Positions 4,989 to 55,249 of a DNA stretch of 64,000 nt are shown piece after piece; position 1 is the stretch's first letter, and every line of letters starts with the position of its first letter. Source of the DNA: Orobanche coerulescens (taxonomy: Eukaryota > Streptophyta > Magnoliopsida > Lamiales > Orobanchaceae); assembly GCA_033398695.1 (NCBI GenBank), contig JAWKAU010000248.1, positions 101,488-165,487 on the forward strand, in the 5' to 3' direction. Both the position numbers and the translations under genes were made by a program. The notes under the pieces are model-generated. The model was not told the DNA's origin, did no database searches, and was given only the letters and a program-made list of their open reading frames with translations.

Positions 4989-4989
4989 C

Positions 4990-6947: not shown

Positions 6948-6969
6948 TCGGGTTGGTATGATCGCATCC
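6948..6969 (-). pseudogene. 5S rRNA-like copy 1, type A, truncated
   Basis: Only the first 22 nt of the 5S sequence remain (minus strand, starting GGATGCGATC). The rest was separated by the copia insertion at 6947/6948. TTCGGG-type bases show it was type A. Confidence 0.85.
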
Positions 6970-7544
6970 AAAATTAGAACCACATTCTATTCTCTTATGG
7001 TAGATTCGACCCGAACTTCAAACAGCCATAACTTTCGAACCGGGAGGAGCTACGGGACCCACCACACATGCCGGCAAAGCTCTTCTGGCGCCCATCGTGT
7101 GACCCGACGCTCAGAATTCCTATTATAATATGTTTCCGGAAGCGTAACAGCGACTCGTGTCGAACTCATCGCGTTCCGCCATTACATAACTGGTCCCGAG
7201 CCTAAATTACCCCGTTTTCACGCACTTTCGGCCTTTATATCACATTATTTATATAATATTTCGTTTTTCTTTTGATATCTTGTGTTAATTTCGATTTAGA
7301 TGTTTTTCTTAGGCTTAAAAATACATTCTCCAATGTATTGAGAGGCGGAATTTGATAATTTCTAATTAGTAAAATCGCATTTCTTCCCAAGATTTACGAG
7401 CGTTTGTCATTTACTTTATTACTCTCGTGACGGTATATCATTAAATCTTCTTTAGACCGTAGGTGGAAGGATCACCGTGCATAATTCCTAAGAAAATGAA
7501 AATCGAGTGTAAAAAAGAATCGAGCAAGATTGGACGGCAAAAAT

Positions 7545-7662
7545 GGGGGTGCAACACGAGGACGTCTAGGGGTCACCAATCCTAGTACTACTCTCGCCCA
7601 TGCACGCTTTATTTAGGAGTTCTAATGGGATTCGGTGCATTAGAGTTGGTATGATCGCATCC
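7545..7662 (-). rRNA. 5S rRNA-like copy 2, type B
   Basis: 118 nt, near full length. Minus strand starts GGATGCGATC and ends GCACCCCC, followed by a T5 run. It keeps GAGTAGTAC, has GATTGGTGACC in the box C region, and lacks a couple of bases near the 3' third. Probably a pseudogene. Confidence 0.8.
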
Positions 7663-8238
7663 AAAATTAGAACCACATTCTATTCTTCTTATGGTAGATT
7701 TGACCCGAACTTCAAACAGCCATAACTTTCGAACCGGGAGGAGCTACGGGACCCACCACACATGCCGGCAAAGCTCTTCTGGCGCCCATCGTGTGACCCG
7801 ACGCTCAGAATTCCTATTATAATATGTTTCTGGAAGCGGAACGGCGATTCGTGTCGAACTCATTGCGTTCCGCCATGACATAACTGGTCCCGAGCCTAAA
7901 TTACCCCGTTTTCACGCACTTTCGGCCTTTATATCACTTTATTTATATAATATTTCGTTTTTCTTTTGATATCTTGTGTCATTTTCGATTTAGATGTGTT
8001 TCTTAGGCTTAAAAATACATTCTCCAATGTATTGAGAGGCGGAATTTGATAATTTCTAATTAGTAAAATCGCATTTCTTCCCAAGATCTGACGAGCGTTT
8101 GTCATTTACTTTATTACTCCCGTGACGGTCTATCATTAAATCTTCTTTAAACCGTAGGTTGAAGGATCACCGTGAATAATTCCTAAGAAAATGAAAAATC
8201 AAGTGTAAAAAAGAATCGAAAGCGTTGGACGGCAAAAA

Positions 8239-8349
8239 GGGGGTGCAACACGAGGACTTCCTGTGGGGTCACCCATCCTAGTATTACTCTCGCCCATGCA
8301 CGCTTTACTTAATGGGATTCGGTGCATTCGGGTTGGTATGATCGCATCC
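8239..8349 (-). rRNA. 5S rRNA-like copy 3, type A
   Basis: 111 nt with the type A 9-nt deletion. The box C region keeps GGATGGGTGACC. The segment after it reads CCACAGG instead of CCCCTGG. T5 run downstream. Confidence 0.8.
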
Positions 8350-8914
8350 AAAATTAGAACCACGTTCTATTCTCTTATGGTAGATTTGACCGAACTTCAA
8401 ATGCCATAACTTTCGAACCGGAGGAGCTACGGGACCCACCACACATGCCGGCAAAGCTCTTCCGGCGCCCATCGTGTGACCCGACGCCGTAATTCCTATT
8501 ATAATATGTTTCGAAGCGTAACGGCGATTCGTGTCGAACTCATCGCGCTCCGCCATTACATAATCGGTCCCGAGCCTAAATTACCCGTTTTCACGCACTT
8601 TCGGCCTTTATATCACATTATTTATATAATATTTCGTTTTTCTTTTGATATCTTGTGTTAATTTCGATTTAGATGTTTTTCTTAGGCTTAAAAATACATT
8701 CTCCAATGTATTGAGAGGCGTAATTTGATAATTTCTAATTAGTAAAATCGCATTTCTTCCCAAGATTTACGAGCGTTTGCCATTTACTTTATTACTCTCG
8801 TGACGGTATATCATTAAATCTTCTTTAGACCGTAGGTGGAAGGATCACCGCATAATTCCTAAGAAAATGAAAATCGAGTGTAAAAAAGAATCGAGCAAGA
8901 TTGACGGCAAAAAT

Positions 8915-9030
8915 GGGGGTGCAACACGAGGACGCCCTAGGGGTCACCAATCCTACTACTCTCGCCCATGCACGCTTTATTTAGGAGTTCTAATGGGATT
9001 CGGTGCATTAGGGTTGGTATGATCGCATCC
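8915..9030 (-). rRNA. 5S rRNA-like copy 4, type B
   Basis: 116 nt, type B with small deletions, including one in the intermediate-element region where one TAG triplet of GAGTAGTACTAGG is missing. T5 run downstream. Confidence 0.78.
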
Positions 9031-9608
9031 AAAATTAGAACCACATTCTATTCTTCTTATGGTAGATTCGACCCGAACTTCAAACAGCCATAACTTTCGA
9101 ACCGGGAGGAGCTACGGGACCCACCACACATGCCGGCAAAGCTCTTCTGGCGCCCATCGTGTGACCCGACGCTCAGAATTCCTATTATAATATGTTTCTG
9201 GAAGCGGAACGGCGATTCGTGTCGAACTCATTGCGTTCCGCCATGACATAACTGGTCCCGAGCCTAAATTACCCCGTTTTCACGCACTTTCGGCCTTTAT
9301 ATCACTTTATTTATATAATATTTCGTTTTTCTTTTGATATCTTGTGTCATTTTCGATTTAGATGTGTTTCTTAGGCTTAAAAATACATTCTCCAATGTAT
9401 TGAGAGGCGGAATTTGATAATTTCTAATTAGTAAAATCGCATTTCTTCCCAGTACGACGAGCGTTTGCCATTTACTTTATTACTCTCGTGACGGTATATC
9501 ATTAAATCTTCTTTAAACCGTAGGTTGAAGGATCACCGTGAATAATTCCTAAGAAAATGAAAAATCAAGTGTAAAAAAAGAATCGAGCAGCGTTGGACGG
9601 CAAAAAAA

Positions 9609-9719
9609 GGGGGTGCAACACGAGGACTTCCCAGGGGGTCACCCATCCTAGTATTACTCTCGCCCATGCACGCTTTACTTAATGGGATTCGGTGCATTCG
9701 GGTTGGTATGATCGCATCC
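9609..9719 (-). rRNA. 5S rRNA-like copy 5, type A
   Basis: A clean type A copy of 111 nt with GGATGGGTGACCCCCTGGGA and a T7 run directly after the 3' end. Confidence 0.85.
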
Positions 9720-10295
9720 AAAATTAGAACCACGTTCTATTCTCTAATGGTAGATTTGACCCGAACTTCAAACAGCCATAACTTTCGAACCGGGAGGAGC
9801 TACGGGACCCACCACACATGCCGGCAAAGCTCTTCTGGCGCCCATCGTGTGACCCGACGCTCAGAATTCCTATTATAATATGTTTCTGGAAGCGTAACGG
9901 CGATTCGTGTCGAACTCATCGCGTTCCGCCATTACATAACTGGTCCCGAGCCTAAATTACCCCGTTTTCACGCACTTTCGGCCTTTATATCACATTATTT
10001 ATATAATATTTCGTTTTTCTTTTGATATCTTGTGTTAATTTCGATTTAGATGTTTTTCTTAGGCTTAAAAATACCTTCTCCAATGTATTGAGAGGCGGAA
10101 TTTGATAATTTCTAATTAGTAAAATCGCATTTCTTCCCAGTACGACGAGCGTTTGCCATTTACTTTATTACTCTCGTGACGGTATATCATTAAATCTTCT
10201 TTAGACCGTAGGTGGAAGGATCACCGTGCATAATTCCTAAGAAAATGAAAAATCGAGTGTAAAAAAAGAATCGAGCAGTATTGGACGGCAAAAAT

Positions 10296-10414
10296 GGGGG
10301 TGCAACACGAGGACGCCCTAGGGGTCACCAATCCTAGTACTACTCTCGCCCATGCACGCTTTATTTAGTATTTATAATGGGATTCGGTGCATTATGGTTT
10401 GTATGATCGCATCC
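10296..10414 (-). rRNA. 5S rRNA-like copy 6, type B
   Basis: 119 nt. The stretch that is usually GAACTCCTAAATAAAG is altered (ATAAATACTAAATAAAG), and the 5' part reads ATACAAACC. T5 run downstream. Confidence 0.8.
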
Positions 10415-10989
10415 AAAATTAGAACAAAATTCTATTCTTCTTATGTTAGATTCGACCCGAACTTCAAATGTACCATAACTTTCGAACCGGGAGGAGCTAC
10501 TGACCCACCACACATGCCGGCAAAGCTCTTCCGGCGCCCATCGTGTGACCCGACGCCGAATTCCTATTATAATATGTTTCGAAGCGGAACGGCGATTCGT
10601 GTCGAACTCATTGCGTTCCGCCATGACATAACTGGTCCCGAGCCTAAATTACCCCGTTTTCACGCACTTTCGGCCTTTATATCACTTTATTTATATAATA
10701 TTTCGTTTTTCTTTTGATATCTTGTGTCATTTTCGATTTAGATGTGTTTCTTAGGCTTAAAAATACATTCTCCAATGTATTGAGAGGCGGAATTTGATAA
10801 TTTCTAATTAGTAAAATCGCATTTCTTCCCAAGATTTACGAGCGTTTGTCATTTACTTTATTACTCCCGTGACGGTCTATCATTAAATCTTCTTTAAACC
10901 GTAGGTTGAAGGATCACCGTGAATAATTCCTAAGAAAATGAAAAATCAAGTGTAAAAAAAGAATCGAGCAGCGTTGGACGGCAAAAAAA

Positions 10990-11098
10990 GGGGGTGCAAC
11001 ACGAGGACTTCCTGTGGGGTCACCCATCCTAGTATTACTCGCCCATGCACGCTTTACTTAATGGGATTCGGTGCATTCGGGTTGGTATGATCGCATCC
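10990..11098 (-). rRNA. 5S rRNA-like copy 7, type A
   Basis: 109 nt, type A with a 2-nt loss in GGGCGAGAGTAA (reads GGGCGAGTAA). T7 run downstream. Confidence 0.82.
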
Positions 11099-11670
11099 AA
11101 AATTAGAACCACATTCTATTCTCTTATGGTAGATTCGACCAACTTCAAATGGCCATAACTTTCGAACCGGAGGAGCTACGGGACCCACCACACATGCCGG
11201 CAAAGCTCTTCTCGCGCCCATCGTGTGACCCGACGCTCAAAATTCCTATTATAATATGTTTCTGAAGCGTAACGGCGATTCGTGTCGAACTCATCGCGTT
11301 CCGCCATTACATAACCGGTCCCGAGCCTAAATTACCCCGCTTTCACGCATTTTCGGCCTTTATATCACATTATTTATATAATATTTCGTTTTTCTTTTGA
11401 TATCTTGTGTTAATTTCGATTTAGATGTTTTTCTTAGGCTTAAAAATACATTCTCCAATGTATTGAGAGGCGGAATTTGATAATTTCTAATTAGTAAAAT
11501 CGCATTTCTTCCCAAAGACGATTTGAGCGTTTGCCATTTACTTTATTACTCTCGTGACGGTATATCATTAAATCTTCTTTAGACCGTAGGTGGAAGGATC
11601 ACCGTGCATAATTCCTAAGAAAATGAAAATCGAGTGTAAAAAAGAATCGAGCAAGATTGACGGCAAAAAT

Positions 11671-11787
11671 GGGGTGCAACACGAGGACGCCCTAGGGGTC
11701 ACCAATCCTAGTACTACTCTCGCCCATGCACGCTTTATTTAGGAGTTCTAATGGGATTCGTGCATTAGGGTTGGTATGATCGCATCC
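11671..11787 (-). rRNA. 5S rRNA-like copy 8, type B
   Basis: 117 nt, type B with single-base losses at a few G/C positions. T5 run downstream. Confidence 0.8.
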
Positions 11788-12356
11788 AAAATTAGAACCA
11801 CATTCTATTCTTCTTATGGTAGATTCGACCCGAACTTCAAATGTACCATAACTTTCGAACCGGAGGAGCTACGGACCCACCACACATGCCGGCAAAGCTC
11901 TTCCGCGCCCATCGTGTGACCCGACGCCGAATTCCTATTATAATATGTTCATGGAAGTGGAACGGCGATTCGTGTCGAACTCATCGCGTCCGCCATGACA
12001 TAATCGGTCCCGAGCCTAAATTACCCCTGCTTTCACGCACTTTCGGCCTTTATATCACTTTATTTATATAATATTTCGTTTCTTTTGATATCTTGTGTCA
12101 TTTTCGATTTAGATGTGTTTCTTAGGCTAAAAAATACATTCTCCAATGTATTGAGAGGCGGAATTTGATAATTTCTAATTAGTAAAATCGCATTTCTTCC
12201 CAAAGATTTACGAGCGTTTGTCATTTACTTTATTACTCCCGTGACGGTCTATCATTAAATCTTCTTTAAACCGTAGGTTGAAGGATCACCGTGAATAATT
12301 CCTAAGAAAATGAAAAATCAAGTGTAAAAAGAATCGAGCAAATTGACGGCAAAAAA

Positions 12357-12467
12357 GGGGGTGCAACACGAGGACTTCCCAGGGGGTCACCCATCCTAGT
12401 ATTACTCTCGCCCATGCACGCTTTACTTAATGGGATTCGGTGCATTCGGGTTGGTATGATCGCATCC
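12357..12467 (-). rRNA. 5S rRNA-like copy 9, type A
   Basis: 111 nt, clean type A. T6 run downstream. Confidence 0.85.
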
Positions 12468-13044
12468 AAAATTAGAACCACGTTCTATTCTCTTATGGTA
12501 GATTTGACCCGAACTTCAAACAGCCATAACTTTCGAACCGGGAGGAGCTACGGGACCCACCACACATGCCGGCAAAGCTCTTCTGGCGCCCATCGTGTGA
12601 CCCGACGCTCAGAATTCCTATTATAATATGTTTCCGGAAGCGTAACGGCGATTCGTGTCGAACTCATCGCGTTCCGCCATTACATAACTGGTCCCGAGCC
12701 TAAATTACCCCGTTTTCACGCACTTTCGGCCTTTATATCACATTATTTATATAATATTTCGTTTTTCTTTTGATATCTTGTGTTAATTTCGATTTAGATG
12801 TTTTTCTTAGGCTTAAAAATACATTCTCCAATGTATTGAGAGGCGGAATTTGATAATTTCTAATTAGTAAAATCGCATTTCTTCCCAGTACGACGAGCGT
12901 TTGCCATTTACTTTATTACTCTCGTGACGGTATATCATTAAATCTTCTTTAGACCGTAGGTGGAAGGATCACCGTGCATAATTCCTAAGAAAATGAAAAA
13001 TCGAGTGTAAAAAAAGAATCGAGCAGTATTGGACGGCAAAAAAT

Positions 13045-13164
13045 GGGGGTGCAACACGAGGACGTCCTAGGGGGTCACCAATCCTAGTACTACTCTCGCC
13101 CATGCACGCTTTATTTAGGAGTTCTAATGGGATTCGGTGCATTAGGGTTGGTATGATCGCATCC
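13045..13164 (-). rRNA. 5S rRNA-like copy 10, type B
   Basis: Reference-quality type B copy: 120 nt, the normal length of plant 5S rRNA. The minus strand has GAACTCCTAAATAAAGCGTG, GAGTAGTACTAGG and GATTGGTGACCCCCTAGGAC. Against the plant 5S I know, the A-box start and box C carry several changes. T6 run downstream. Confidence 0.87.
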
Positions 13165-13743
13165 AAAATTAGAACCACATTCTATTCTTCTTATGGTAGA
13201 TTCGACCCGAACTTCAAACAGCCATAACTTTCGAACCGGGAGGAGCTACGGACCTACCACACATGCCGGCAAAGCTCTTCTGGCGCCCATCGTGTGACCT
13301 GACGCTCAGAATTCCTATTATAATATGTTTCTGGAAGCGGAACGGCGATTCGTGTCGAACTCATTGCGTTCCGCCATGACATAACTGGTCCCGAGCCTAA
13401 ATTCCCCCGTTTTCACGCACTTTCGGCCTTTATATCACTTTATTTATATAATATTTCGTTTTTCTTTTGATATCTTGTGTCATTTTCGATTTAGATGTTT
13501 TTCTTATGCTTAAAAATACATTCTCCAATGTATTGAGAGGCGGAATTTGATAATTTCTAATTAGTAAAATCGCATTTCTTCCCAAAGATTTACGAGCGTT
13601 TGTCATTTACTTTATTACTCCCGTGACGGTCTATCATTAAATCTTCTTTAAACCGTAGGTTGAAGGATCACCGTGAATAATTCCTAAGAAAATGAAAAAT
13701 CAAGTGTAAAAAAAGAATCGAGCAGCGTTGGACGGCAAAAAAA

Positions 13744-13854
13744 GGGGGTGCAACACGAGGACTTCCCAGGGGGTCACCCATCCTAGTATTACTCTCGCCC
13801 ATGCACGCTTTACTTAATGAGATTCGGTGCATTCGGGTTGGTATGATCGCATCC
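13744..13854 (-). rRNA. 5S rRNA-like copy 11, type A
   Basis: Reference-quality type A copy of 111 nt. CCCATTA is followed by AGTAAAGCGTG (here CTCATTA), missing the GAACTCCTA-type 9 nt that type B retains. T7 run downstream. Confidence 0.86.
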
Positions 13855-14204
13855 AAAATTAGAACCACATTCTATTCTCTTATGGTAGATTCGACCCGAA
13901 CTTCAAACAGCCATAACTTTCGAACCGGGAGGAGCTACGGGACCCACCACACATGCCGGCAAAGCTCTTCTGGCGCCCATCGTGTGACCCGACGCTCAAA
14001 ATTCCTATTATAATATGTTTCTGGAAGCGTAACGGCGATTCGTGTCGAACTCATCGCGTTCCGCCATTACATAACTGGTCCCGAGCCTAAATTACCCCGT
14101 TTTCACGCATTTTCGGCCTTTATATCACATTATTTATATAATATTTCGTTTTTCTTTTGATATCTTGTGTTAATTTCGATTTAGATGTTTTTCTTAGGCT
14201 TAAA

Positions 14205-14224
14205 AATACATTCTCCAATGTATT
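14205..14224. other. Perfect 8-bp hairpin repeated in each spacer
   Basis: AATACATT-CTCC-AATGTATT is an exact inverted repeat with a 4-nt loop, about 350 bp from the 5S-like gene. The same 20 bases occur in nearly every unit. A few units carry changes, for example near 21050 and 43965. The role is unknown; it could be a folding element or a chance palindrome spread by amplification. Confidence 0.75.
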
Positions 14225-14429
14225 GAGAGGCGGAATTTGATAATTTCTAATTAGTAAAATCGCATTTCTTCCCAGTACGACGAGCGTTTGCCATTTACTT
14301 TATTACTCTCGTGACGGTATATCATTAAATCTTCTTTAGACCGTAGGTGGAAGGATCACCGTGCATAATTCCTAAGAAAATGAAAAATCGAGTGTAAAAA
14401 AGAATCGAGCAAAGATTGACGGCAAAAAT

Positions 14430-14548
14430 GGGGGTGCAACACGAGGACGCCCTAGGGGTCACCAATCCTAGTACTACTCTCGCCCATGCACGCTTTATTT
14501 AGGAGTTCTAATGGGATTCGGTGCATTAGGGTTGGTATGATCGCATCC
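14430..14548 (-). rRNA. 5S rRNA-like copy 12, type B
   Basis: 119 nt, type B with GGGCGTCC in place of GGACGTCC near the 3' third. T5 run downstream. Confidence 0.82.
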
Positions 14549-15122
14549 AAAATTAGAACCACATTCTATTCTTCTTATGGTAGATTCGACCCGAACTTCA
14601 AACAGCCATAACTTTCGAACCGGAGGAGCTACGGACCCACCACACATGCCGGCAAAGCTCTTCCGCGCCCATCGTGTGACCCGACGCCGTAATTCCTATT
14701 ATAATATGTTTCTGGAAGCGGAACGGCGATTCGTGTCGAACTCATTGCGTTCCGCCATGACATAACTGGTCCCGAGCCTAAATTACCCCGTTTTCATGCA
14801 CTTTCGGCCTTTATATCACTTTATTTATATAATATTTCATTTTTCTTTTGATATCTTGTGTCATTTTCGATTTAGATGTGTTTCTTAGGCTTAAAAATAC
14901 ATTCTCCAATGTATTGAGAGGCGGAATTTGATAATTTCTAATTAGTAAAATCGCATTTCTTTCCAGTACGACGAGCGTTTGTCATTTACTTTATTACTCC
15001 CGTGACGGTCTATCATTAAATCTTCTTTAAACCGTAGGTTGAAGGATCACCGTGAATAATTCCTAAGAAAATGAAAAATCAAGTGTAAAAAAAGAATCGA
15101 GCAAATATTGACGGCAAAAAAA

Positions 15123-15230
15123 GGGGGTGCAACACGAGGACTTCCTGTGGGTCACCCATCCTAGTATTACTCTCGCCATGCACGCTTTACTTAATGGGAT
15201 TCGTGCATTCGGGTTGGTATGATCGCATCC
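15123..15230 (-). rRNA. 5S rRNA-like copy 13, type A
   Basis: 108 nt, type A with three further single-base losses. T7 run downstream. Confidence 0.8.
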
Positions 15231-15798
15231 AAAATTAGAACCACATTCTATTCTCTTATGGTAGATTCGACCGAACTTCAAATGCCATAACTTTCAAACC
15301 GGGAGGAGCTACGGACCCACCACACATGCCGGCAAAGCTCTTCCGGCGCCCATCGTGTGACCCGACGCCTGAATTCCTATTATAATATGTTTCCTAAGCG
15401 TAACGGCGATTCGTGTCGAACTCATCGCGTTACGCCATTACATAACCGGTCCCGAGCCTAAATTACCCTGCTTTCACGCACTTTCGGCCTTTATATCACA
15501 TTATTTATATAATATTTCGTTTTTCTTTTGATATCTTGTGTTAATTTCGATTTAGATGTTTTTCTTAGGCTTAAAAATACATTCTCCAATGTATTGAGAG
15601 GCGGAATTTGATAATTTCTAATTAGTAAAATCGCATTTCTTCCCAAGATTTACGAGCGTTTGTCATTTACTTTATTACTCTCGTGACGGTATATCATTAA
15701 ATCTTCTTTAGACCGTAGGTGGAAGGATCACGTGCATAATTCCTAAGAAAATGAAAATCGAGTGTAAAAAAGAATCGAGCAAGATTGACGGCAAAAAT

Positions 15799-15914
15799 GG
15801 GGTGCAACACGAGGACGCCCTAGGGGTCACCAATCCTAGTACTACTCTCGCCCATGCACGCTTTATTTAGGAGTTCTAATGGGATTCGTGCATTAGGTTG
15901 GTATGATCGCATCC
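15799..15914 (-). rRNA. 5S rRNA-like copy 14, type B
   Basis: 116 nt, type B with losses in runs of G or C. T5 run downstream. Confidence 0.8.
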
Positions 15915-16482
15915 AAAATTAGAACCACATTCTATTCTTCTTATGGTAGATTCGACCGAACTTCAAATGCCCATAACTTTCGAACCGGAGGAGCTACGGA
16001 CCCACCACACATGCCGGCAAAGCTCTTCCGGCGCCCATCGTGTGACCCGACGCCGTAATTCCTATTATAATATGTTTCGAAGCGGAACGGCGATTCGTGT
16101 CGAACTCATTGCGTTCCGCCATGACATAACCGGTCCCGAGCCTAAATTACCCTGCTTTCATGCACTTTCGGCCTTTATATCACTTTATTTATATAATATT
16201 TCATTTTTCTTTGATATCTTGTGTCATTTTTGATTTAGATGTGTTTCTTAGGCTTAAAAATACATTCTCCAATGTATTGAGAGGCGGAATTTGATAATTT
16301 CTAATTAGTAAAATCGCATTTCTTTCCAAGATTTACGAGCGTTTGTCATTTACTTTATTACTCCCGTGACGGTCTATCATTAAATCTTCTTTAAACCGTA
16401 GGTTGAAGGATCACCGTGAATAATTCCTAAGAAAATGAAAATCAAGTGTAAAAAAGAATCGAGCAATTGGACGGCAAAAAAA

Positions 16483-16591
16483 GGGGGTGCAACACGAGGA
16501 CTTCCTGTGGGGTCACCCATCCTAGTATTACTCTCGCCCATGCACGCTTTACTTAATGGGATTCTGCATTCGGGTTGGTATGATCGCATCC
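16483..16591 (-). rRNA. 5S rRNA-like copy 15, type A
   Basis: 109 nt, type A; 2 nt are lost in the GCACCGAATCC segment. T7 run downstream. Confidence 0.8.
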
Positions 16592-17164
16592 AAAATTAGA
16601 ACCACATTCTATTCTCTTATGGTAGATTCGACCCGAACTTCAAATAGCCATAACTTTCGAACCGGGAGGAGCTACGGGACCCACCACACATGCCGTCAAA
16701 GCTCTTCTGGCGGTCATCGTGTGACCCGACACTCAGAATTCCTATTATAATATGTTTCCGGAAGCGTAACGGCGATTCGTGTCGAACTCATCGCGTTCCG
16801 CCATGACATAACTGGTCCCGAGCCTAAATTACCCTGTTTTCACGCACTTTCGGCCTTTATATCACATTATTTATATAATATTTCGTTTTTCTTTTGATAT
16901 CTTGTGTTAATTTCGATTTAGATGTTTTTCTTAGGCTTAAAAATACATTCTCCAATGTATTGAGAGGCGGAATTTGATAATTTCTAATTAGTAAAATCGC
17001 ATTTCTTCCCAGTACGACGAGCGTTTGTCATTTACTTTATTACTCTCGTGACGGTATATCATTAAATCTTCTTTAGAGCGTATGTGGAAGGATCGCCTTG
17101 CATACTTCCTAAGAAAATAAATAATCGAGTGTAAAAAAGAATCGAGCAGATTGACGGCAAAAAT

Positions 17165-17284
17165 GGGGGTGCAACACGAGGACGTCCTAGGGGGTCACCA
17201 ATCCTAGTACTACTCTCGCCCATGCACGCTTTATTTAGGAGTTCTAATGGGATTCGGTGCATTAGGGTTGGTATGATCGCATCC
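17165..17284 (-). rRNA. 5S rRNA-like copy 16, type B
   Basis: 120 nt, clean type B. T5 run downstream. The spacer to its right lacks about 17 bp near 17433 that other units have. Confidence 0.85.
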
Positions 17285-17843
17285 AAAATTAGAACCACAT
17301 TCTATTCTTCTTATGGTAGATTCGTCCCGAACTTCAAACAGCCATAACTTTCGAACCGGGAGGAGCTACGGGACCCACCACACATGCCGGCAAAGCTCTT
17401 CTGGCGCCCATCGTGTGACCCGACGCTCAGAATTTATGGAAGCGGAACGGCGATTCGTGTCGAACTCATCGCGTTCCGCCATGACATAACTCGTCCCGAG
17501 CCTAAATTACCCCGTTTTCACGCACTTTCGGCCTTTATATCACTTTATTTATATAATATTTCGTTTTTCTTTTGATATCTTGTGTCATTTTCGATTTAGA
17601 TGTGTTTCTTAGGCTTAAAAATACATTCTCCAATGTATTGAGAGGCGGAATTTGATAATTTCTAATTAGTAAAATCGCATTTCTTCCCAGTACGACGAGC
17701 GTTTGTCATTTACTTTATTACTCCCGTGACGGTCTATCATTAAATCTTCTTTAAACCGTAGGTTGAAGGATCACCGTGAATAATTCCTAAGAAAATAAAA
17801 AATCAAGTGTAAAAAAGAATCGAGCAATATTGGACGGCAAAAA

Positions 17844-17952
17844 GGGGGTGCAACACGAGGACTTCCTGTGGGGTCACCCATCCTAGTATTACTCGCCCAT
17901 GCACGCTTTACTTAATGGGATTCGGTGCATTCGGGTTGGTATGATCGCATCC
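17844..17952 (-). rRNA. 5S rRNA-like copy 17, type A
   Basis: 109 nt, type A with the shortened GGGCGAGTAA. T5 run downstream. Confidence 0.8.
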
Positions 17953-18523
17953 AAAATTAGAACCACATTCTATTCTCTTATGGTAGATTCGACCGAACTT
18001 CAAATAGCCATAACTTTCGAACCGGAGGAGCTACGGACCCACCACACATGCCGGCAAAGCTCTTCCGCGCCCATCGTGTGACCCGACGCTCAGAATTCCT
18101 ATTATAATATGTTTCCGGAAGCGTAACGGCGATTCGTGTCGAACTCATCGCGTTCCGCCATTACATAACTGGTCCCGAGCCTAAATTACCCCGTTTTCAC
18201 GCACTTTTGGCCTTTATATCACATTATTTATATAATATTTCGTTTTTCTTTTGATATCTTGTGTTAATTTCGATTTAGATGTTTTTCTTAGGCTTAAAAA
18301 TACATTCTCCAATGTATTGAGAGGCGGAATTTGATAATTTCTAATTAGTAAAATCGCATTTCTTCCCAGTACGACGAGCGTTTGTCATTTACTTTATTAC
18401 TCTCGTGACGGTATATCATTAAATCTTCTTTAGACCGTAGGTGGAAGGATCACCGTGCATAATTCCTAAGAAAATGAAAACTCGGGTGTAAAAAAAGAAT
18501 CGAGCAAGATTGACGGCAAAAAT

Positions 18524-41872: not shown

Positions 41873-41877
41873 ATATC
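41873..41877. repeat. Target-site duplication, right copy
   Basis: ATATC immediately after the LTR end ATTACA, followed by TTGTGTC of the interrupted spacer. Confidence 0.9.
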
Positions 41878-44186: not shown

Positions 44187-44305
44187 GGGGGTGCAACACG
44201 AGGACGTCTGAGGGGTCACCAATCCTAGTACTACTCTCGCCCATGCACGCTTTATTTAGGAGTTCTAATGGGATTCGGTGCATTAGGGTTGGAATGACCG
44301 CATAC
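44187..44305 (-). rRNA. 5S rRNA-like copy 41, type B
   Basis: 119 nt, type B with a changed 5' end (GTATGCGGTCATTCC). T5 run downstream. Confidence 0.8.
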
Positions 44306-44871
44306 AAAATTAGAACCACATTCTATTCTTCTTATGGTAGATTCGACCGAACTTCAAATGACCATAACTTTCGAACGGGAGGAGCTACGGGACCCACCAC
44401 ACATGCCGGCAAAGCTCTTGGCGCCCATCGTGTGACCCGACGCTCGAATTCCTATTATAATATGTTTAAGGCGGAACGGCGATTCGTGTCGAACTCATCG
44501 CGTTCGCCATGACATAATCGGTCCCGAGCCTAAATTACCCGTTTTCACGCACTTTCGGCCTTTATATCACTTTATTTATATAATATTTCGTTTTCTTTTG
44601 ATATCTTGTGTCATTTTCGATTTAGATGTGTTTCTTAGGCTTAAAAATACATTCTCAATGTATTGAGAGGCGGAATTTGATAATTTCTAATTAGTAAAAT
44701 CGCATTTCTTCCCGATCTGACGAGCGTTTGTCATTTACTTTATTACTCCCGTGACGGTCTATCATTAAATCTTCTTTAAACCGTAGGTTGAAGGATCACC
44801 GTGAATAATTCCTAAGAAAATGAAAAATCAAGTGTAAAAAAAGAATCGAGCAGCGTTGGACGGCAAAAAAA

Positions 44872-44982
44872 GGGGGTGCAACACGAGGACTTCCCAGGGG
44901 GTCACCCATCCTAGTATTACTCTCGCCCATGCACGCTTTACTTAATGGGATTCGGTGCATTCGGGTTGGTATGATCGCATCC
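44872..44982 (-). rRNA. 5S rRNA-like copy 42, type A
   Basis: 111 nt, clean type A. T7 run downstream. Confidence 0.85.
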
Positions 44983-45559
44983 AAAATTAGAACCACATTC
45001 TATTCTCTTATGGTAGATTCGACCCGAACTTCAAACAGCCATAACTTTCGAACCGGGAGGAGCTACGGGACCCACCACACATGCCGGCAAAGCTCTTCTG
45101 GCGCCCATCGTGTGACCCGACGCTCAGAATTCCTATTATAATATGTTTCCGGAAGCGTAACGGTGATTCGTGTCGAACTCATCGCGTTCCGCCATTACAT
45201 AACTGGTCCCGAGCCTAAATTACCCCGTTTTCACGCACTTTTGGACTTTATATCACATTATTTATATAATATTTCGTTTTTCTTTTGATATCTTGTGTTA
45301 ATTTCGATTTAGATGTTTTTCTTAGGCTTAAAAATACATTCTCCAATGTATTGAGAGGCGGAATTTGATAATTTCTAATTAGTAAAATCGCATTTCTTCC
45401 CAGTACGACGAGCGTTTGTCATTTACTTTATTACTCTCGTGACGGTATATCATTAAATCTTCTTTAGACCGTAGGTGGAAGGATCACCGTGCATAATTCC
45501 TAAGAAAATGAAAAATTGAGTGTAAAAAAAGAATCGAGCAGTATTGGACGGCAAAAAAT

Positions 45560-45679
45560 GGGGGTGCAACACGAGGACGTCCTAGGGGGTCACCAATCCT
45601 AGTACTACTCTCGCCCATGCACGCTTTATTTAGGAGTTCTAATGGGATTCGGTGCATTAGGGTTGGTATGATCGCATCC
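45560..45679 (-). rRNA. 5S rRNA-like copy 43, type B
   Basis: 120 nt, clean type B. T6 run downstream. Confidence 0.85.
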
Positions 45680-46245
45680 AAAATTAGAACCACATTCTAT
45701 TCTTCTTATGGTAGATTCGACCCGAACTTCAAACAGCCATAACTTTCGAGCAGGAGGAGCTACGGGACCCACCACACATGCCGGCAAAGCTCTTGGCGCC
45801 CATCGTGTGACCCGGCCTCAGAATTCCTATTATAATATGTTTCTGGAAGCGGAACGGCGATTCGTGTCGAACTCATTGCGTTCCGCCATGACATAACTGG
45901 TCCCGAGCCTAAATTACCCCGTTTTCACGCACTTTCGGCCTTTATATCACTTTATTTATATAATATTTCGTTTTTCTTTTGATATCTTGTGTCATTTCGA
46001 TTTAGATATGTTTCTTAGGCTTAAAAATACATTCTCCAATGTATTGAGAGGCGGAATTTGATATTTCTAATTAGTAAAATCGCATTTATTCCCGATCTGA
46101 CGCGTTTGTCATTTACTTTATTACTCCCGTGACGGTCTATCATTAAATCTTCTTTAAACCGTAGGTTGAAGGATCACCGTGAATAATTCCTAAGAAAATA
46201 AAAATCAAGTGTAAAAAAGAATCGAGCGGCGTTGGACGGCAAAAA

Positions 46246-46356
46246 GGGGGTGCAACACGAGGACTTCCCAGGGGGTCACCCATCCTAGTATTACTCTCGC
46301 CCATGCACGCTTTACTTAATGGGATTCGGTGCATTCGGGTTGGTATGATCGCATCC
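46246..46356 (-). rRNA. 5S rRNA-like copy 44, type A
   Basis: 111 nt, clean type A, first of a second run of three A copies. T5 run downstream. Confidence 0.84.
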
Positions 46357-46933
46357 AAAATTAGAACCACATTCTATTCTCTTATGGTAGATTCGACCCG
46401 AACTTCAAACAGCCATAACTTTCGAACCGGGAGGAGCTACGGGACCCACCACACATGCCGGCAAAGCTCTTCTGGCGCCCATCGTGTGATCCGACGCTCA
46501 GAATTCCTATTATAATATGTTTCCGGAAGCGTAACGGCGACTCGTGTCGAACTCATCGCGTTCCGCCATTACATAACTGGTCCCGAGCCTAAATTACCCC
46601 GTTTTCACGCACTTTTGGCCTTTATATCACATTATTTATATAATATTTCGTTTTGCTTTTGATATCTTGTGTTAATTTCGATTTAGATGTTTTTCTTAGG
46701 CTTAAAAATACATTCTCCAATGTACTGAGAGGCGGAATTTGATAATTTCTAATTAGTAAAATCGCATTTCTTCCCAGTACGACGAGCGTTTGTCATTTAC
46801 TTTATTACTCCCGTGACGGTCTATCATTAAATCTTCTTTAAACCGTAGGTTGAAGGATCACCGTGAATAATTCCTAAGAAAATGAAAAATCAAGTGTAAA
46901 AAAAGAATCGAGCAGCGTTGGACGGCAAAAAAA

Positions 46934-47044
46934 GGGGGTGCAACACGAGGACTTCCCAGGGGGTCACCCATCCTAGTATTACTCTCGCCCATGCACGCTT
47001 TACTTAATGGGATTCGGTGCATTCGGGTTGGTATGATCGCATCC
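46934..47044 (-). rRNA. 5S rRNA-like copy 45, type A
   Basis: 111 nt, clean type A. The spacers on both sides carry the same A-to-B type switch. T7 run downstream. Confidence 0.84.
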
Positions 47045-47604
47045 AAAATTAGAACCACATTCTATTCTCTTATGGTAGATTCGACCCGAACTTCAACCAT
47101 AACTTTGAGCGGGAGGAGCTACGGGACCCACCACACATGCGGCAAAGCTCTTCCGGCGCCCATCGTGTGATCCGACGCTCGAATTCCTATTATAATATGT
47201 TTCGGAGCGTAACGGCTACTCGTGTCGAACTCATCGCGTTCGCCATTACATAACCGGTCCCGAGCCTAAATTACCCGTTTTCACGCACTTTTGGCCTTTA
47301 TATCACATTATTTATATAATATTTCGTTTTGCTTTTGATATCTTGTGTTAATTTCGATTTAGATTTTTTCTTAGGCTTAAAAATACATTCTCCAATGTAC
47401 CGAGAGGCGGAATTTGATAATTTCTAATTAGTAAAATCGCATTTCTTCCCGATCTGACGAGCGTTTGTCATTTACTTTATTACTCCGTGACGGTCTATCA
47501 TTAAATCTTCTTTAAACCGTAGGTTGAAGGATCACCGTGAATAATTCCTAAGAAAATGAAAAATCAAGTGTAAAAAGAATCGAGCGGCGTTGGACGGCAA
47601 AAAA

Positions 47605-47713
47605 GGGGTGCAACACGAGGACTTCCTGTGGGTCACCCATCCTAGTATTACTCTCGCCCATGCACGCTTTACTTAATGGGATTCGGTGCATTCGGGTTGG
47701 TATGATCGCATCC
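47605..47713 (-). rRNA. 5S rRNA-like copy 46, type A
   Basis: 109 nt, type A with small losses. T6 run downstream. Third A in a row. Confidence 0.8.
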
Positions 47714-48287
47714 AAAATTAGAACCACATTCTATTCTCTTATGGTAGATTCGACCCGAACTTCAAATGGCCCATAACTTTCGAACAGGAGGAGCTACGGG
47801 ACCCACCACACATGCGGCAAAGCTCTTCCGGCGCCCATCGTGTGACCCGACGCTCGAATTCCTATTATAATATGTTTAGGAGCGTAACGGTGATTCGTGT
47901 CGAACTCATCGCGTTCGCCATTACATAATCGGTCCCGAGCCTAAATTACCCCGTTTTCACGCACTTTTGGACTTTATATCACATTATTTATATAATATTT
48001 CGTTTTTCTTTTGATATCTTGTGTTAATTTCGATTTAGATGTTTTTCTTAGGCTTAAAAATACATTCTCCAATGTATTGAGAGGCGGAATTTGATAATTT
48101 CTAATTAGTAAAATCGCATTTCTTCCCAAAGATTTACGAGCGTTTGTCATTTACTTTATTACTCTCGTGACGGTATATCATTAAATCTTCTTTAGACCGT
48201 AGGTGGAAGGATCACCGTGCATAATTCCTAAGAAAATGAAAAATTGAGTGTAAAAAAAGAATCGAGCAGTATTGGACGGCAAAAAAT

Positions 48288-48404
48288 GGGGGTGCAACAC
48301 GAGGACGTCTGAGGGTCACCAATCCTAGTACTACTCTCGCCCATGCACGCTTTATTTAGGAGTTCTAATGGGATTCGGTGCATTAGGGTTGGTATGATCG
48401 CATC
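48288..48404 (-). rRNA. 5S rRNA-like copy 47, type B
   Basis: 117 nt, type B starting GATGCGATC (one G short). T6 run downstream. Confidence 0.8.
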
Positions 48405-48971
48405 AAAATTAGAACCACATTCTATTCTTCTTATGGTAGATTCGACCCGAACTTCAAATGCCCATAACTTTCGAACCGGAGGAGCTACGGGACCCACCAC
48501 ACATGCGGCAAAGCTCTTGGCGCCCATCGTGTGACCCGGCTCGAATTCCTATTATAATATGTTTCTGAAGGCGGAACGGCGATTCGTGTCGAACTCATTG
48601 CGTTCGCCATGACATAATCGGTCCCGAGCCTAAATTACCCGTTTTCACGCACTTTCGGCCTTTATATCACTTTATTTATATAATATTTCGTTTCTTTTGA
48701 TATCTTGTGTCATTTTCGATTTAGATGTGTTTCTTAGGCTTAAAAATACATTCTCCAATGTATTGAGAGGCGGAATTTGATAATTTCTAATTAGTAAAAT
48801 CGCATTTCTTCCCAGTACGACGAGCGTTTGTCATTTACTTTATTACTCCCGTGACGGTCTATCATTAAATCTTCTTTAAACCGTAGGTTGAAGGATCACC
48901 GTGAATAATTCCTAAGAAAATAAAAAATCAAGTGTAAAAAAAGAATCGAGCAGCGTTGGACGGCAAAAAAA

Positions 48972-49082
48972 GGGGGTGCAACACGAGGACTTCCCAGGGG
49001 GTCACCCATCCTAGTATTACTCTCGCCCATGCACGCTTTACTTAATGGGATTCGGTGCATTCGGGTTGGTATGATCGCATCC
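48972..49082 (-). rRNA. 5S rRNA-like copy 48, type A
   Basis: 111 nt, clean type A. T7 run downstream. Confidence 0.85.
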
Positions 49083-49659
49083 AAAATTAGAACCACATTC
49101 TATTCTCTTATGGTAGATTCGACCCGAACTTCAAACAGCCATAACTTTCGAACCGGGAGGAGCTACGGGACCCACCACACATGCCGGCAAAGCTCTTCTG
49201 GCGCCCATCGTGTGATCCGACGCTCAGAATTCCTATTATAATATGTTTCCGGAAGCGTAACGGCGATTCGTGTCGAACTCATCGCGTTCCGCCATTACAT
49301 AACTGGTCCCGAGCCTAAATTACCCCGTTTTCACGCACTTTTGGCCTTTATATCACATTATTTATATAATATTTCGTTTTGCTTTTGATATCTTGTGTTA
49401 ATTTCGATTTAGATGTTTTTCTTAGGCTTAAAAATACATTCTCCAATGTACTGAGAGGCGGAATTTGATAATTTCTAATTAGTAAAATCGCATTTCTTCC
49501 CAGTACGACGAGCGTTTGTCATTTACTTTATTACTCTCGTGACGGTATATCATTAAATCTTCTTTAGACCGTAGGTGGAAGGATCACCGTGCATAATTCC
49601 TAAGAAAATGAAAACTCGAGTGTAAAAAAAGAATCGAGCAGCATTGGACGGCAAAAAAT

Positions 49660-49779
49660 GGGGGTGCAACACGAGGACGTCCTAGGGGGTCACCAATCCT
49701 AGTACTACTCTCGCCCATGCACGCTTTACTTAGGAGTTCTAATGGGATTCGTTGCATTAGGGTTGGTATGATCGCATCC
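49660..49779 (-). rRNA. 5S rRNA-like copy 49, type B
   Basis: 120 nt, clean type B with TGCAACGAATCC in place of TGCACCGAATCC. T6 run downstream. Confidence 0.84.
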
Positions 49780-50354
49780 AAAATTAGAACCACATTCTAT
49801 TCTTCTTATGGTAGATTCGACCCGAACTTCAAATGACCATAACTTTCGAGCGGGAGGAGCTACGGGACCCACCACACATGCCGGCAAAGCTCTTCGGCGC
49901 CCATCGTGTGACCCGACGCCGTAATTCCTATTATAATATGTTTATGGAAGCGGAACGGCGATTCGTGTCGAACTCATCGCGTTCCGCCATGACATAACTG
50001 GTCCCGAGCCTAAATTACCCCGTTTTCACGCACTTTCGGCCTTTATATCACTTTATTTATATAATATTTCGTTTTTCTTTTGATATCTTGTGCCATTTTC
50101 GATTTAGATGTGTTTCTTAGGCTTAAAAATACATTCTCCAATGTATTGAGAGGCGGAATTTGATAATTTCTAATTAGTAAAATCGCATTTCTTCCCGATC
50201 TGACGAGCGTTTGTCATTTACTTTATTACTCCCGTGACGGTCTATCATTAAATCTTCTTTAAACCGTAGGTTGAAGGATCACCGTGAATAATTCCTAAGA
50301 AAATAAAAAATCAAGTGTAAAAAAAGAATCGAGCAGCGTTGGACGGCAAAAAAA

Positions 50355-50465
50355 GGGGGTGCAACACGAGGACTTCCCAGGGGGTCACCCATCCTAGTAT
50401 TACTCTCGCCCATGCACGCTTTACTTAATGGGATTCGGTGCATTCGGGTTGGTATGATCGCATCC
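50355..50465 (-). rRNA. 5S rRNA-like copy 50, type A
   Basis: 111 nt, clean type A. T7 run downstream. Confidence 0.85.
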
Positions 50466-51028
50466 AAAATTAGAACCACATTCTATTCTCTTATGGTAGA
50501 TTCGACCCGAACTTCAAACAGCCATAACTTTCGAACCGGGAGGAGCTACGGGACCCACCACACATGCGGCAAAGCTCTTGGCGCCCATCGTGTGACCGAC
50601 GCTCGAATTCCTATTATAATATGTTTAGGAGCGTAACGGCGATTCGTGTCGAACTCATCGCGTTCGCCATTACATAATCGGTCGAGCCTAAATTACCCGT
50701 TTTCACGCACTTTTGGCCTTTATATCACATTATTTATATAATATTTCGTTTTGCTTTTGATATCTTGTGTTAATTTCGATTTAGATGTTTTTCTTAGGCT
50801 TAAAAATACAATCTCCAATGTCTTGAGAGGCGGAATTTGATAATTTCTAATTAGTAAAATCGCATTTCTTCCCGATCTGACGAGCGTTTGTCATTTACTT
50901 TATTACTCGTGACGGTATATCATTAAATCTTCTTTAGACCGTAGGTGGAAGGATCACCGTGCATAATTCCTAAGAAAATGAAAACTCGAGTGTAAAAAAG
51001 AATCGAGCAAGATTGGACGGCAAAAAAT

Positions 51029-51145
51029 GGGGGTGCAACACGAGGACGTCTGAGGGTCACCAATCCTAGTACTACTCTCGCCCATGCACGCTTTATTTAG
51101 GAGTTCTAATGGGATTCGGTGCATTAGGGTTGGTATGATCGCATC
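51029..51145 (-). rRNA. 5S rRNA-like copy 51, type B
   Basis: 117 nt, type B starting GATGCGATC (one G short) and with CCCTCAGACG near the 3' third. T6 run downstream. Confidence 0.8.
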
Positions 51146-51713
51146 AAAATTAGAACCACATTCTATTCTTCTTATGGTAGATTCGACCGAACTTCAAACC
51201 ATAACTTTCGAACCGGAGGAGCTACGGGACCCACCACACATGCCGGCAAAGCTCTTCGGCGCCCATCGTGTGACCCGACGCTCGAATTCCTATTATAATA
51301 TGTTTAAGGCGGAACGGCGAAGCGTGTCGAACTCATCGAGTTCCGCCATGACATAACTGGTCCAGAGCCTAAATTACCCCGTTTTCACGCACTTTCGGCC
51401 TTTATATCACTTTATTTATATAATATTTCGTTTTTCTTTTGATATCTTGTGTCATTTTCGATTTAGATGTGTTTCTTAGGCTTAAAAATACATTCTCCAA
51501 TGTATTGAGAGGCGGAATTTGATAATTTCTAATTAGTAAAATCGCATTTCTTCCCGATCTGACGAGCGTTTGTCATTTACTTTATTACTGTCGTGACGGT
51601 CTATCATTAAATCTTCTTTAAACCGTAGGTTGAAGGATCACCGTGAATAATTCCTAAGAAAATGAAAAATCAAGTGTAAAAAAAGAATCGAGCAGCGTTG
51701 GACGGCAAAAAAA

Positions 51714-51824
51714 GGGGGTGCAACACGAGGACTTCCCAGGGGGTCACCCATCCTAGTATTACTCTCGCCCATGCACGCTTTACTTAATGGGATTCGGTGC
51801 ATTCGGGTTGGTATGATCGCATCC
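51714..51824 (-). rRNA. 5S rRNA-like copy 52, type A
   Basis: 111 nt, clean type A. T7 run downstream. Confidence 0.85.
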
Positions 51825-52391
51825 AAAATTAGAACCACATTCTATTCTCTTATGGTAGATTCGACCGAACTTCAAACCCATAACTTTCGAACCGGGAGGA
51901 GCTACGGGACCCACCACACATGCCGGCAAAGCTCTTCCGGCGCCCATCGTGTGACCCGGCCTCGAATTCCTATTATAATATGTTTCCTGAAGCGTAACGG
52001 TGATTCGTGTCGAACTCATCGCGTTCCGCCATTACATAACTGGTCCCGAGCCTAAATTACCCCGATTTCACGCACTATTGGCCTTTATATCACTTTATTT
52101 ATATAATATTTCGTTTTCTTTTGATATCTTGTGTTAATTTCGATTTAGATGTTTTCTTAGGCTTAAAAATACATTCTCCAATGTATTGAGAGGCGGAATT
52201 TGATAATTTCTAATTAGTAAAATCGCATTTCTTCCCGATCTGACGAGCGTTTGTCATTTACTTTATTACTCTCGTGACGGTATATCATTAAATCTTCTTT
52301 AGACCGTAGGTGGAAGGATCACCGTGCATAATTCCTAAGAAAATGAAAAATTGAGTGTAAAAAAAGAATCGAAAGATTGGACGGCAAAAAT

Positions 52392-52509
52392 GGGGTGCAA
52401 CACGAGGACGTCTGAGGGGTCACCAATCCTAGTACTACTCTCGCCCATGCACGCTTTATTTAGGAGTTCTAATGGGATTCGGTGCATTAGGGTTGGTATG
52501 ATCGCATCC
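52392..52509 (-). rRNA. 5S rRNA-like copy 53, type B
   Basis: 118 nt, type B with CCCCTCAGACG near the 3' third. T5 run downstream. Confidence 0.8.
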
Positions 52510-53087
52510 AAAATTAGAACCACATTCTATTCTTCTTATGGTAGATTCGACCCGAACTTCAAATAGCCATAACTTTCGAACCGGGAGGAGCTATGGGACC
52601 CACCACACATGCCGGCAAAGCTCTTCTGGCGCCCATCGTGTGACCCGACGCTCAGAATTCCTATTATAATATGTTTCTGGAAGCGGAACGGCGATTCGTG
52701 TCGAACTCATTGCGTTCCGCCATGACATAACTGGTCCCGAGCCTAAATTACCCCGTTTTCACGCACTTTCGGCCTTTATATCACTTTATTTATATAATAT
52801 TTCGTTTTTCTTTTGATATCTTGTGTCATTTTCGCTTTAGATGTGTTTCTTAGGCTTAAAAATACATTCTCCAATGTATTGAGAGGCGGAATTTGATAAT
52901 TTCTAATTAGTAAAATCGCATTTCTTCCCAGTACGACGAGCGTTTGTCATTTACTTTATTACTCCCGTGACGGTCTATCATTAAATCTTCTTTAAACCGT
53001 AGGTTGAAGGATCACCGTGAATAATTCCTAAGAAAATAAAAAATCAAGTGTAAAAAAAGAATCGAGCAGCGTTGGACGGCAAAAAAA

Positions 53088-53198
53088 GGGGGTGCAACAC
53101 GAGGACTTCCCAGGGGGTCACCCATCCTAGTATTACTCTCGCCCATGCACGCTTTACTTAATGGGATTCGGTGCATTCGGGTTGGTATGATCGCATCC
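53088..53198 (-). rRNA. 5S rRNA-like copy 54, type A
   Basis: 111 nt, clean type A. T7 run downstream. Confidence 0.85.
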
Positions 53199-53773
53199 AA
53201 AATTAGAACCACATTCTATTCTCTTATGGTAGATTCGACCCGAACTTCAAACAGCCATAACTTTCGAACCGGGAGGAGCTACGGGACCCACCACACATGC
53301 CGGCAAAGCTCTTCTGGCGCCCATCGTGTGATCCGACGCTCAGAATTCCTATTATAATATGTTTCCGGAAGCGTAACGGCGATTCGTGTCGAACTCATCG
53401 CGTTCCGCCATTACATAACTGGTCCCGAGCCTAAATTACCCCGTTTTCACGCACTTTTGGCCTTTATATCACATTATTTATATAATATTTCGTTTTGCTT
53501 TTGATATCTTGTGTTAATTTCGATTTAGATGTTTTTCTTAGGCTTAAAAATACATTCTCCAATGTACTGAGAGGCGGAATTTGATAATTTCTAATTAGTA
53601 AAATCGCATTTCTTCCCGATCTGACGAGCGTTTGTCATTTACTTTATTACTCGTGACGGTATATCATTAAATCTTCTTTAGACCGTAGGTGGAAGGATCA
53701 CCGTGCATAATTCCTAAGAAAATGAAAAATCGAGTGTAAAAAAAGAATCGAGCAGAGTTTGACGGCAAAAAAT

Positions 53774-53893
53774 GGGGGTGCAACACGAGGACGTCCTAGG
53801 GGGTCACCAATCCTAGTACTACTCTCGCCCATGCACGCTTTACTTAGGAGTTCTAATGGGATTCGTTGCATTAGGGTTGGTATGATCGCATCC
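53774..53893 (-). rRNA. 5S rRNA-like copy 55, type B
   Basis: 120 nt, clean type B with TGCAACGAATCC, as in copy 49. T6 run downstream. Confidence 0.84.
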
Positions 53894-54471
53894 AAAATTA
53901 GAACCACATTCTATTCTTCTTATGGTAGATTCGACCCGAACTTCAAACAGCCATAACTTTCGAACCGGGAGGAGCTACGGGACCCACCACACATGCCGGC
54001 AAAGCTCTTCTGGCGCCCATCGTGTGACCCGACGCTCAGAATTCCTATTATAATATGTTTCTGGAAGCGGAACGGCGATTCGTGTCGAACTCATCGCGTT
54101 CCGCCATGACATAACTGGTCCCGAGCCTAAATTACCCCGTTTTCACGCACTTTCGGCCTTTATATCACTTTATTTATATAATATTTCGTTTTTCTTTTGA
54201 TATCTTGTGCCATTTTCGATTTAGATGTGTTTCTTAGGCTTAAAAATACATTCTCCAATGTATTGAGAGGCGGAATTTGATAATTTCTAATTAGTAAAAT
54301 CGCATTTCTTCCCAGTACGACGAGCGTTTGTCATTTACTTTATTACTCCCGTGACGGTCTATCATTAAATCTTCTTTAAACCGTAGGTTGAAGGATCACC
54401 GTGAATAATTCCTAAGAAAATGAAAAATCAAGTGTAAAAAAAGAATCGAGCAGCGTTGGACGGCAAAAAAA

Positions 54472-54582
54472 GGGGGTGCAACACGAGGACTTCCCAGGGG
54501 GTCACCCATCCTAGTATTACTCTCGCCCATGCACGCTTTACTTAATGGGATTCGGTGCATTCGGGTTGGTATGATCGCATCC
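54472..54582 (-). rRNA. 5S rRNA-like copy 56, type A
   Basis: 111 nt, clean type A. T7 run downstream. Confidence 0.85.
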
Positions 54583-55157
54583 AAAATTAGAACCACATTC
54601 TATTCTCTTATGGTAGATTCGACCCGAACTTCAAACAGCCATAACTTTCGAACCGGGAGGAGCTACGGGACCCACCACACATGCCGGCAAAGCTCTTCTG
54701 GCGCCCATCGTGTGACCCGACGCTCAGAATTCCTATTATAATATGTTTAGGAGCGTAACGGCGATTCGTGTCGAACTCATCGCGTTCCGCCATTACATAA
54801 CTGGTCCCGAGCCTAAATTACCCCGTTTTCACGCACTTTTGGCCTTTATATCACATTATTTATATAATATTTCGTTTTTCTTTTGATATCTTGTGTTAAT
54901 TTCGATTTAGATGTTTTTCTTAGGCTTAAAAATACATTCTCCAATGTATTGAGAGGCGGAATTTGATAATTTCTAATTAGTAAAATCGCATTTCTTCCCA
55001 GTACGACGAGCGTTTGTCATTTACTTTATTACTCTCGTGACGGTATATCATTAAATCTTCTTTAGACCGTAGGTGGAAGGATCACCGTGCATAATTCCTA
55101 AGAAAATGAAAAATTGAGTGTAAAAAAAGAATCGAGCAGTATTGGACGGCAAAAAAT

Positions 55158-55249
55158 GGGGGTGCAACACGAGGACGTCCTAGGGGGTCACCAATCCTAG
55201 TACTACTCTCGCCCATGCACGCTTTATTTAGGAGTTCTAATGGGATTCG
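55158..55249 (-). pseudogene. 5S rRNA-like copy 57, type B, truncated
   Basis: 92 nt, the 3' part of a type B gene. The first 28 nt were cut off by the gypsy insertion whose LTR starts at 55250. T6 run at the 3' end. Confidence 0.87.

Follow-up and report, generated by a model that had tools for sequence, protein, structure and literature searches.

Altered units of the 5S ribosomal RNA gene form a higher-order satellite in Orobanche coerulescens

Satellites derived from 5S ribosomal RNA (rRNA) genes are known in fish and frogs, for instance in Hoplias malabaricus (PMC5437419) and as the frog satellite PcP190 (PMC11675491). Here and below, published systems are described as in the available excerpts of the papers cited. 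We analysed a 5S-derived array in Orobanche coerulescens, located in a stretch of 64,000 nucleotides (contig JAWKAU010000248.1 of assembly GCA_033398695.1, forward-strand positions 101,488 to 165,487). This stretch, which we call the window, forms the right-hand end of contig C248 (165,487 bases), part of a 3.65-Gb assembly. Like the frog and Hoplias satellites, the array is a tandem repeat derived from a 5S unit beside persisting working 5S genes. PcP190 consists of ~190-bp units, each made up of a conserved 5S-like segment and a hypervariable one, whereas the satellite in Orobanche keeps the gene and its full spacer of ~570 bp, does not have a more conserved gene part, and occurs in several higher-order repeats.

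Higher-order arrangements of 5S units have been described in other organisms. In the gymnosperm Gnetum montanum, 5S pseudogenes have been amplified and an alternation within a monomer of ~0.7 kb was proposed (PMC6526317). There, a working gene was proposed to alternate with a pseudogene, as inferred from short reads and blots, while in Orobanche both partners are altered and their order was read directly along contigs. Pikes also have 5S arrays with higher-order organisation, but the copies there are reported to be mostly intact and may be functional (PMC5437419), unlike the satellite copies here. In the duckweed Landoltia punctata, different unit classes are mixed within 5S arrays, but these are distinguished by their spacers, and all genes have the same length (PMC8264772). 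In the open-access literature examined, as far as its excerpts go, we found no plant in which a single 5S-derived family is organised into several higher-order repeats. While 5S-derived satellites as such are already known, the present one is set apart by several higher-order layouts built from one family.

Gene copies were scored with the Rfam model RF00001, and a fuzzy gene-start search (59 matches, three of which were dropped because they lie inside retroelements) added copies below the cut-off. In total, the window holds 57 tandem 5S-like copies, namely 54 minus-strand copies above the cut-off (45-72 bits), a 5′ stub, an internally deleted copy and a copy that is cut. They are arranged in two blocks of ~38 kb together (Table 1). 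A preliminary description of this DNA had given the same extent, but its outer positions, 6948 and 55249, are not true ends: retroelements interrupt the array, which continues leftwards through the contig. Contig C248 as a whole is one 5S-derived array with seven long gaps, and 135 minus-strand gene starts were found from position 580 to 156,069 (contig minus 1,499 bases).

Alignment of the 54 complete units distinguished two types, A, which has a nine-nucleotide deletion in the gene, and B. The two alternate, forming a dimer of ~1.38 kb. When units were typed by the deletion, 45 of 52 neighbour pairs alternated (shuffle mean 26.4, maximum 41 in 100,000), and this count, taken from the type string, becomes 47 of 52 once the spacer is used to type the deleted unit at 30343. 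The 57 copies, two alternating types and ~1.38-kb dimer of the preliminary description are borne out, with alternation at these 47 junctions. Units at even lags are also more similar to each other (identity 0.966-0.971) than units at odd lags (0.947-0.949). All five non-alternating junctions are found at two places, ~25.5-28.3 kb and ~46.4-47.7 kb, where mosaic units occur. At the first, the gene ending at 26245 has a B start and an A end, and the gene ending at 28308 has an A start and a B end; at the second, the genes ending at 47047 and 47716 both have an A start and a B end. Mosaic units at register breaks are the pattern expected from out-of-register exchange. We consider it very probable that the satellite represents altered copies of the genome's own 5S unit, gene and spacer, mainly as A-B dimers. 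On this reading, no functional 5S rRNA is predicted to come from the copies, and unequal crossing-over is the likely means by which the dimers spread.

Two further observations concern the spacer. All unit types carry an 8-bp inverted repeat, AATACATT-GGAG-AATGTATT (e.g., on the minus strand near 9380-9400). It is situated in the longest run of sites at which A and B do not differ, and it is here that three mosaic units seem to change type. The spacer strand opposite the gene reads ccgtaggtggaaggatcaccg at window positions 7459-7480 (plus strand), with copies in other units. We take this stretch to resemble the 3′ end of 18S rRNA with a short deletion; Rfam gave no match to it up to E = 5 in the one canonical spacer checked.

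Collapsed or mis-joined repeats and systematic base-calling errors could in principle mimic both the types and their order, and the data do contain what may be such noise. Differences between copies, and small deletions, are concentrated at CAG, CTG and CCG/CGG, both in window positions 6948-55249 and in pairs of retroelement long terminal repeats (LTRs). In CHG trinucleotides, units deviate from their type ~5-7 times more often than at other sites, and this applies to deletions as well (type A: substitutions 0.068 versus 0.009, deletions 0.028 versus 0.004), and differences between paired LTRs cluster in CHG too (9/16 and 32/45 events). This clustering looks like long-read consensus noise at methylated sites, with real mutation as an alternative. 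The noise inflates per-copy divergence and leaves the consensus types unaffected. Against an artefact, A and B are separated by fixed differences at a set of linked sites as well as by the nine-nucleotide deletion, and the types recur on four contigs (C248, C595, C396 and C1211). Alternation even becomes sharper when CHG and CG columns are masked, with identities of 0.984-0.987 at lag 2 and 0.963-0.964 at lag 1 in the two window blocks. An assembly origin of the types and their order is thus highly unlikely.

The preliminary description had proposed a search of the remaining assembly for canonical 5S genes with a comparison of copy numbers. Such genes are present, hence A and B are not the sole 5S genes. 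The assembly contains 373 exact copies of a canonical 33-nt core, compared with 97 of the A junction (C248, 32; C396, 32; C595, 30; C1211, 3) and 108 of the B core. We compared 13 canonical loci, which contain 118 Rfam matches. Among these, 27 share the highest score, 115.2 bits, and are plant-type genes of 119 nt with one and the same sequence; the others score down to 58.7 bits, and damaged copies occur there too. The canonical unit is ~715 bp; compared with units from these 13 loci, the B consensus shows about 88-93% identity across both gene and spacer. This match along both parts indicates that the satellite derives from the genome's own 5S unit. In a tree of CHG-masked columns, 68 A/B units form one clade (0.992) beside a clade of 76 canonical units. 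As in other 5S-derived satellites, tandem units homologous to the 5S unit are thus found in a genome that has working-type 5S genes elsewhere.

The whole-unit match also bears on Cassandra elements, terminal-repeat retrotransposons in miniature (TRIMs) with a 5S-like stretch in their LTRs. Tandem Cassandra arrays resemble 5S arrays (PMC7215508), and Cassandra shares with 5S a core of ~70 bp around the promoter (PMC10853983). The similarity of the satellite to the canonical unit spans the entire gene and spacer, and no initiator-methionine primer-binding site (up to three errors) was found beyond chance-like three-error matches. We therefore rejected a Cassandra origin, which is extremely improbable.

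Two side observations were made at canonical loci. On C1 (73.154-73.163 Mb), the units starting at 5782, 6483, 7188 and 7892 of the locus are closer to the lineage on the left of C248 (0.967-0.983) than to canonical units (0.955-0.961), so that C1 holds both lineages. On C10 (84.18-84.41 and 93.29-93.42 Mb), the spacing of canonical cores is often a multiple of ~343 bp (343, ~1031, ~2062) among the matches listed, which suggests a different, shorter 5S unit.

The satellite extends beyond the window in both number and layout. On C248, A/B units start near 75 kb. The contig before 67 kb contains a separate, older and noisier 5S lineage outside A/B, with a weak two-unit periodicity of its own (lag 2, 0.9515; lag 1, 0.9438; masked columns). 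A satellite stretch shared by the family has 206 exact copies, and the matches listed include the chromosome-sized contigs C2 (154.607-154.674 Mb) and C14; the same C2 interval is among the matches listed for the B core. Further contigs carry the same 5S-derived family, which also includes a third gene type, o. Types A, B and o share eight gene changes, which suggests that they descend from one altered ancestor. Three layouts were observed: A-B dimers on C248 and C595, B-o dimers in the core of the C2 array, and A-A-o trimers on C396. Alternation on C595 is independent, holding in 35 of the 41 neighbour pairs that were called (20,000 shuffles reached at most 32; B matches listed up to C595:44380), and two units there carry both A and B motifs. 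The trimers on C396 gave 23 of 25 period-3 matches, a value reached in none of 20,000 shuffles. In the C2 core, 13 units were typed BoBoBoBoBoBoo (lag 2, 0.991; lag 1, 0.983). Units two apart are thus closer than neighbours in the window and the C2 core, and units three apart on C396. Between the C2 core and C248, the B gene agrees at 119/119 sites, while the spacer differs at 11 sites. These results support the preliminary reading of a 5S-derived higher-order satellite, which proves larger and richer than described, with a third type, trimers and the C2 array.

The edges of the C2 array are less regular than its core, with a B spacing of four units for one stretch. Among the matches listed, minus-strand canonical cores (154.497-154.571 and 154.775-154.828 Mb) flank the plus-strand satellite, and several of them are ~1403 bp, or two units, apart. 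This pattern may reflect an inversion or a canonical/variant dimer.

Relative to the genome's own 5S gene, the type-B consensus has 11 substitutions in 119 gene sites, so the 15-17 changes of the preliminary description were overstated, and 33/577 in the spacer. Type A has nine substitutions in 110 gene sites and the nine-nucleotide deletion, in line with that description, and 27/577 in the spacer. We polarised changes on the stem of the satellite with the older units on the left of C248. On the stem of A and B, 7/108 gene sites and 9/563 spacer sites changed (p = 0.0075), and for the stem leading to ten consensuses of satellite groups, the counts are 8/117 and 8/562 (odds ratio 5.1, p = 0.0024). 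Between two sets of canonical loci, the gene is conserved relative to the spacer as expected of a functional array (0/119 versus 15/596), which does not hold on the satellite stem. The excess in the gene persists without CG and CHG sites (4/95 versus 3/443, p = 0.021) and when sites 17 and 19 are treated as a single event (p = 0.0073). It is found at A/T sites (p = 0.0075) and is not significant at G/C sites (p = 0.14), and if a 119-nt window may be placed anywhere, it captures 8 of 16 randomly distributed changes with P = 0.067. Deamination of methylated cytosine is not supported as the main cause of decay, as only three of the seven A/B stem changes are transitions and observed/expected CpG is 1.36-1.41 in canonical, A and B alike.

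The predicted structures point in the same direction. Of 34 Rfam base pairs, the canonical gene keeps 32, B 25 and A 24, so that the 5S secondary structure is not preserved in either type. Minimum free energies are -41.5, -29.6 and -29.4 kcal/mol for canonical, B and A, respectively; for the Hoplias malabaricus satellite, too, the RNA is predicted to have far lower stability than functional 5S (PMC5437419). When 11 changes were placed at random, 97% of the resulting sequences retained no fewer pairs than B (random mean 27.6). The seven A/B stem changes break five pairs (random mean 2.75, P = 0.08), which is suggestive of structure-breaking beyond random. In the promoter, the C-box core AGGATGGGTG (motif as given in excerpts of PMC10853983) is changed to AGGATTGGTG in B and intact in A and o. 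The nine nucleotides missing from A are canonical positions 39-47; together with this deletion, positions 3, 17, 19, 31, 53, 62, 85 and 101 distinguish canonical, A, B and o genes. Changes T53A and T62A fall in what we take to be the A-box.

Several observations weigh against a non-functional satellite. The terminator T-run after the gene is retained in satellite units, and the upstream region from -35 to -1 is close to its canonical counterpart, where TATATA is itself absent at -28. Type o has only eight changes and scores up to 88.6 bits. The direct gene-versus-spacer contrasts with the canonical unit do not reach significance (p = 0.16 for A and 0.15 for B), and neither does the contrast between A and B (p = 0.38), so that significance is confined to the polarised stem tests. 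In a tree of all arrays, 134 satellite units form one clade with a support of only 0.27. The frog satellite PcP190, with its 5S-like part, is transcribed (PMC11675491).

Together with the intact C-box core of A and o and the maintenance of hundreds of copies in tandem, the terminator and the high score of o would fit variant 5S rRNAs that serve in a particular tissue or stage, on the model of the oocyte-type genes in Xenopus. A used variant is very unlikely given that the gene changes at least as fast as the spacer, that B retains no more pairs than after random change, and that A lacks nine nucleotides and B has an altered C-box core. Under the safe reading of these comparisons, the satellite gene is not protected by constraint; a bolder reading is that it may have been broken faster than neutral. 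We consider it unlikely, though worth stating, that loss of 5S function was favoured and not merely tolerated. The gene would then have been broken ~5 times faster than its own spacer during satellite formation, as if only units that no longer load the RNA polymerase III machinery or the 5S pool multiply safely, and dead units would have recombined into array-specific dimers and trimers.

For decayed copies of the genome's own 5S unit, the following series of steps may be proposed. One 5S unit would have escaped homogenisation with the working genes, lost constraint and then been amplified, and blocks of two and three units would have been copied out of register by unequal exchange. The resulting satellite is predicted to be transcriptionally silent and is putatively heterochromatic. 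Working 5S genes and decayed 5S satellites of one ancestor coexist in one genome, with at least three gene types and at least three higher-order repeats. They could provide a dated series for the conversion of a housekeeping gene array into a satellite, and for the rise of higher-order repeats outside known centromere satellites. In this species, 5S signals from fluorescence in situ hybridisation, 5S copy counts and short-read 5S consensus sequences will mix working and decayed units.

Table 1. Features of the 5S-derived array and its retroelements in the window.
Feature	Position	Strand	Basis and remarks
5S-derived satellite block 1	6948..32026	-	Rfam and unit alignment; complete units ~690 bp, mostly B/A alternating
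25-nt 5S stub, 5′ part, start of block 1	6948-6972	-	from sequence
5S-derived satellite block 2	41878..55249	-	Rfam and unit alignment; same family as block 1
Last B-type gene of block 2	ends 55249	-	from sequence; cut by LTR element at 55250
Type-B 5S-like gene, example	13046..13164	-	Rfam and unit alignment/consensus; 119 nt
Type-A 5S-like gene, example	9610..9719	-	Rfam and consensus; 110 nt, without canonical nt 39-47
B-spacer unit, 5S gene with internal deletion	30273..30343	-	sequence and spacer typing; no Rfam score
Register break 1 in A/B alternation	25548..28308	-	diagnostic sites
Register break 2 in A/B alternation	46360..47716	-	diagnostic sites
Copia-type LTR element, right part	1..6947	-	LTR pair at C248 98952-100918 and 106477-108434 (contig positions), 97.2%
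Ty3-type LTR retrotransposon, inside one satellite unit	32027..41872	-	LTRs 32027-34357 and 39550-41872, 96.4%
Target-site duplication ATATC, left copy	32022..32026		from sequence
Target-site duplication ATATC, right copy	41873..41877		from sequence
Ty3-type LTR retrotransposon, cut by contig end	55250..64000	+	LTRs 55250-56991 and 62263-64000, 98.7%

All seven long gaps of C248 contain an LTR pair (~1.0-2.3 kb, 91.9-98.7% identical), indicating repeated insertion of retroelements into the satellite. The best named matches of the retroelement proteins are from various flowering plants, with 39% identity for the Ty3 query and 48-72% for the Copia query. Directly before the right LTR of the left Copia element lies a GC-rich tandem repeat of ~80 bp, present in 3.8 copies (window 4268-4573).

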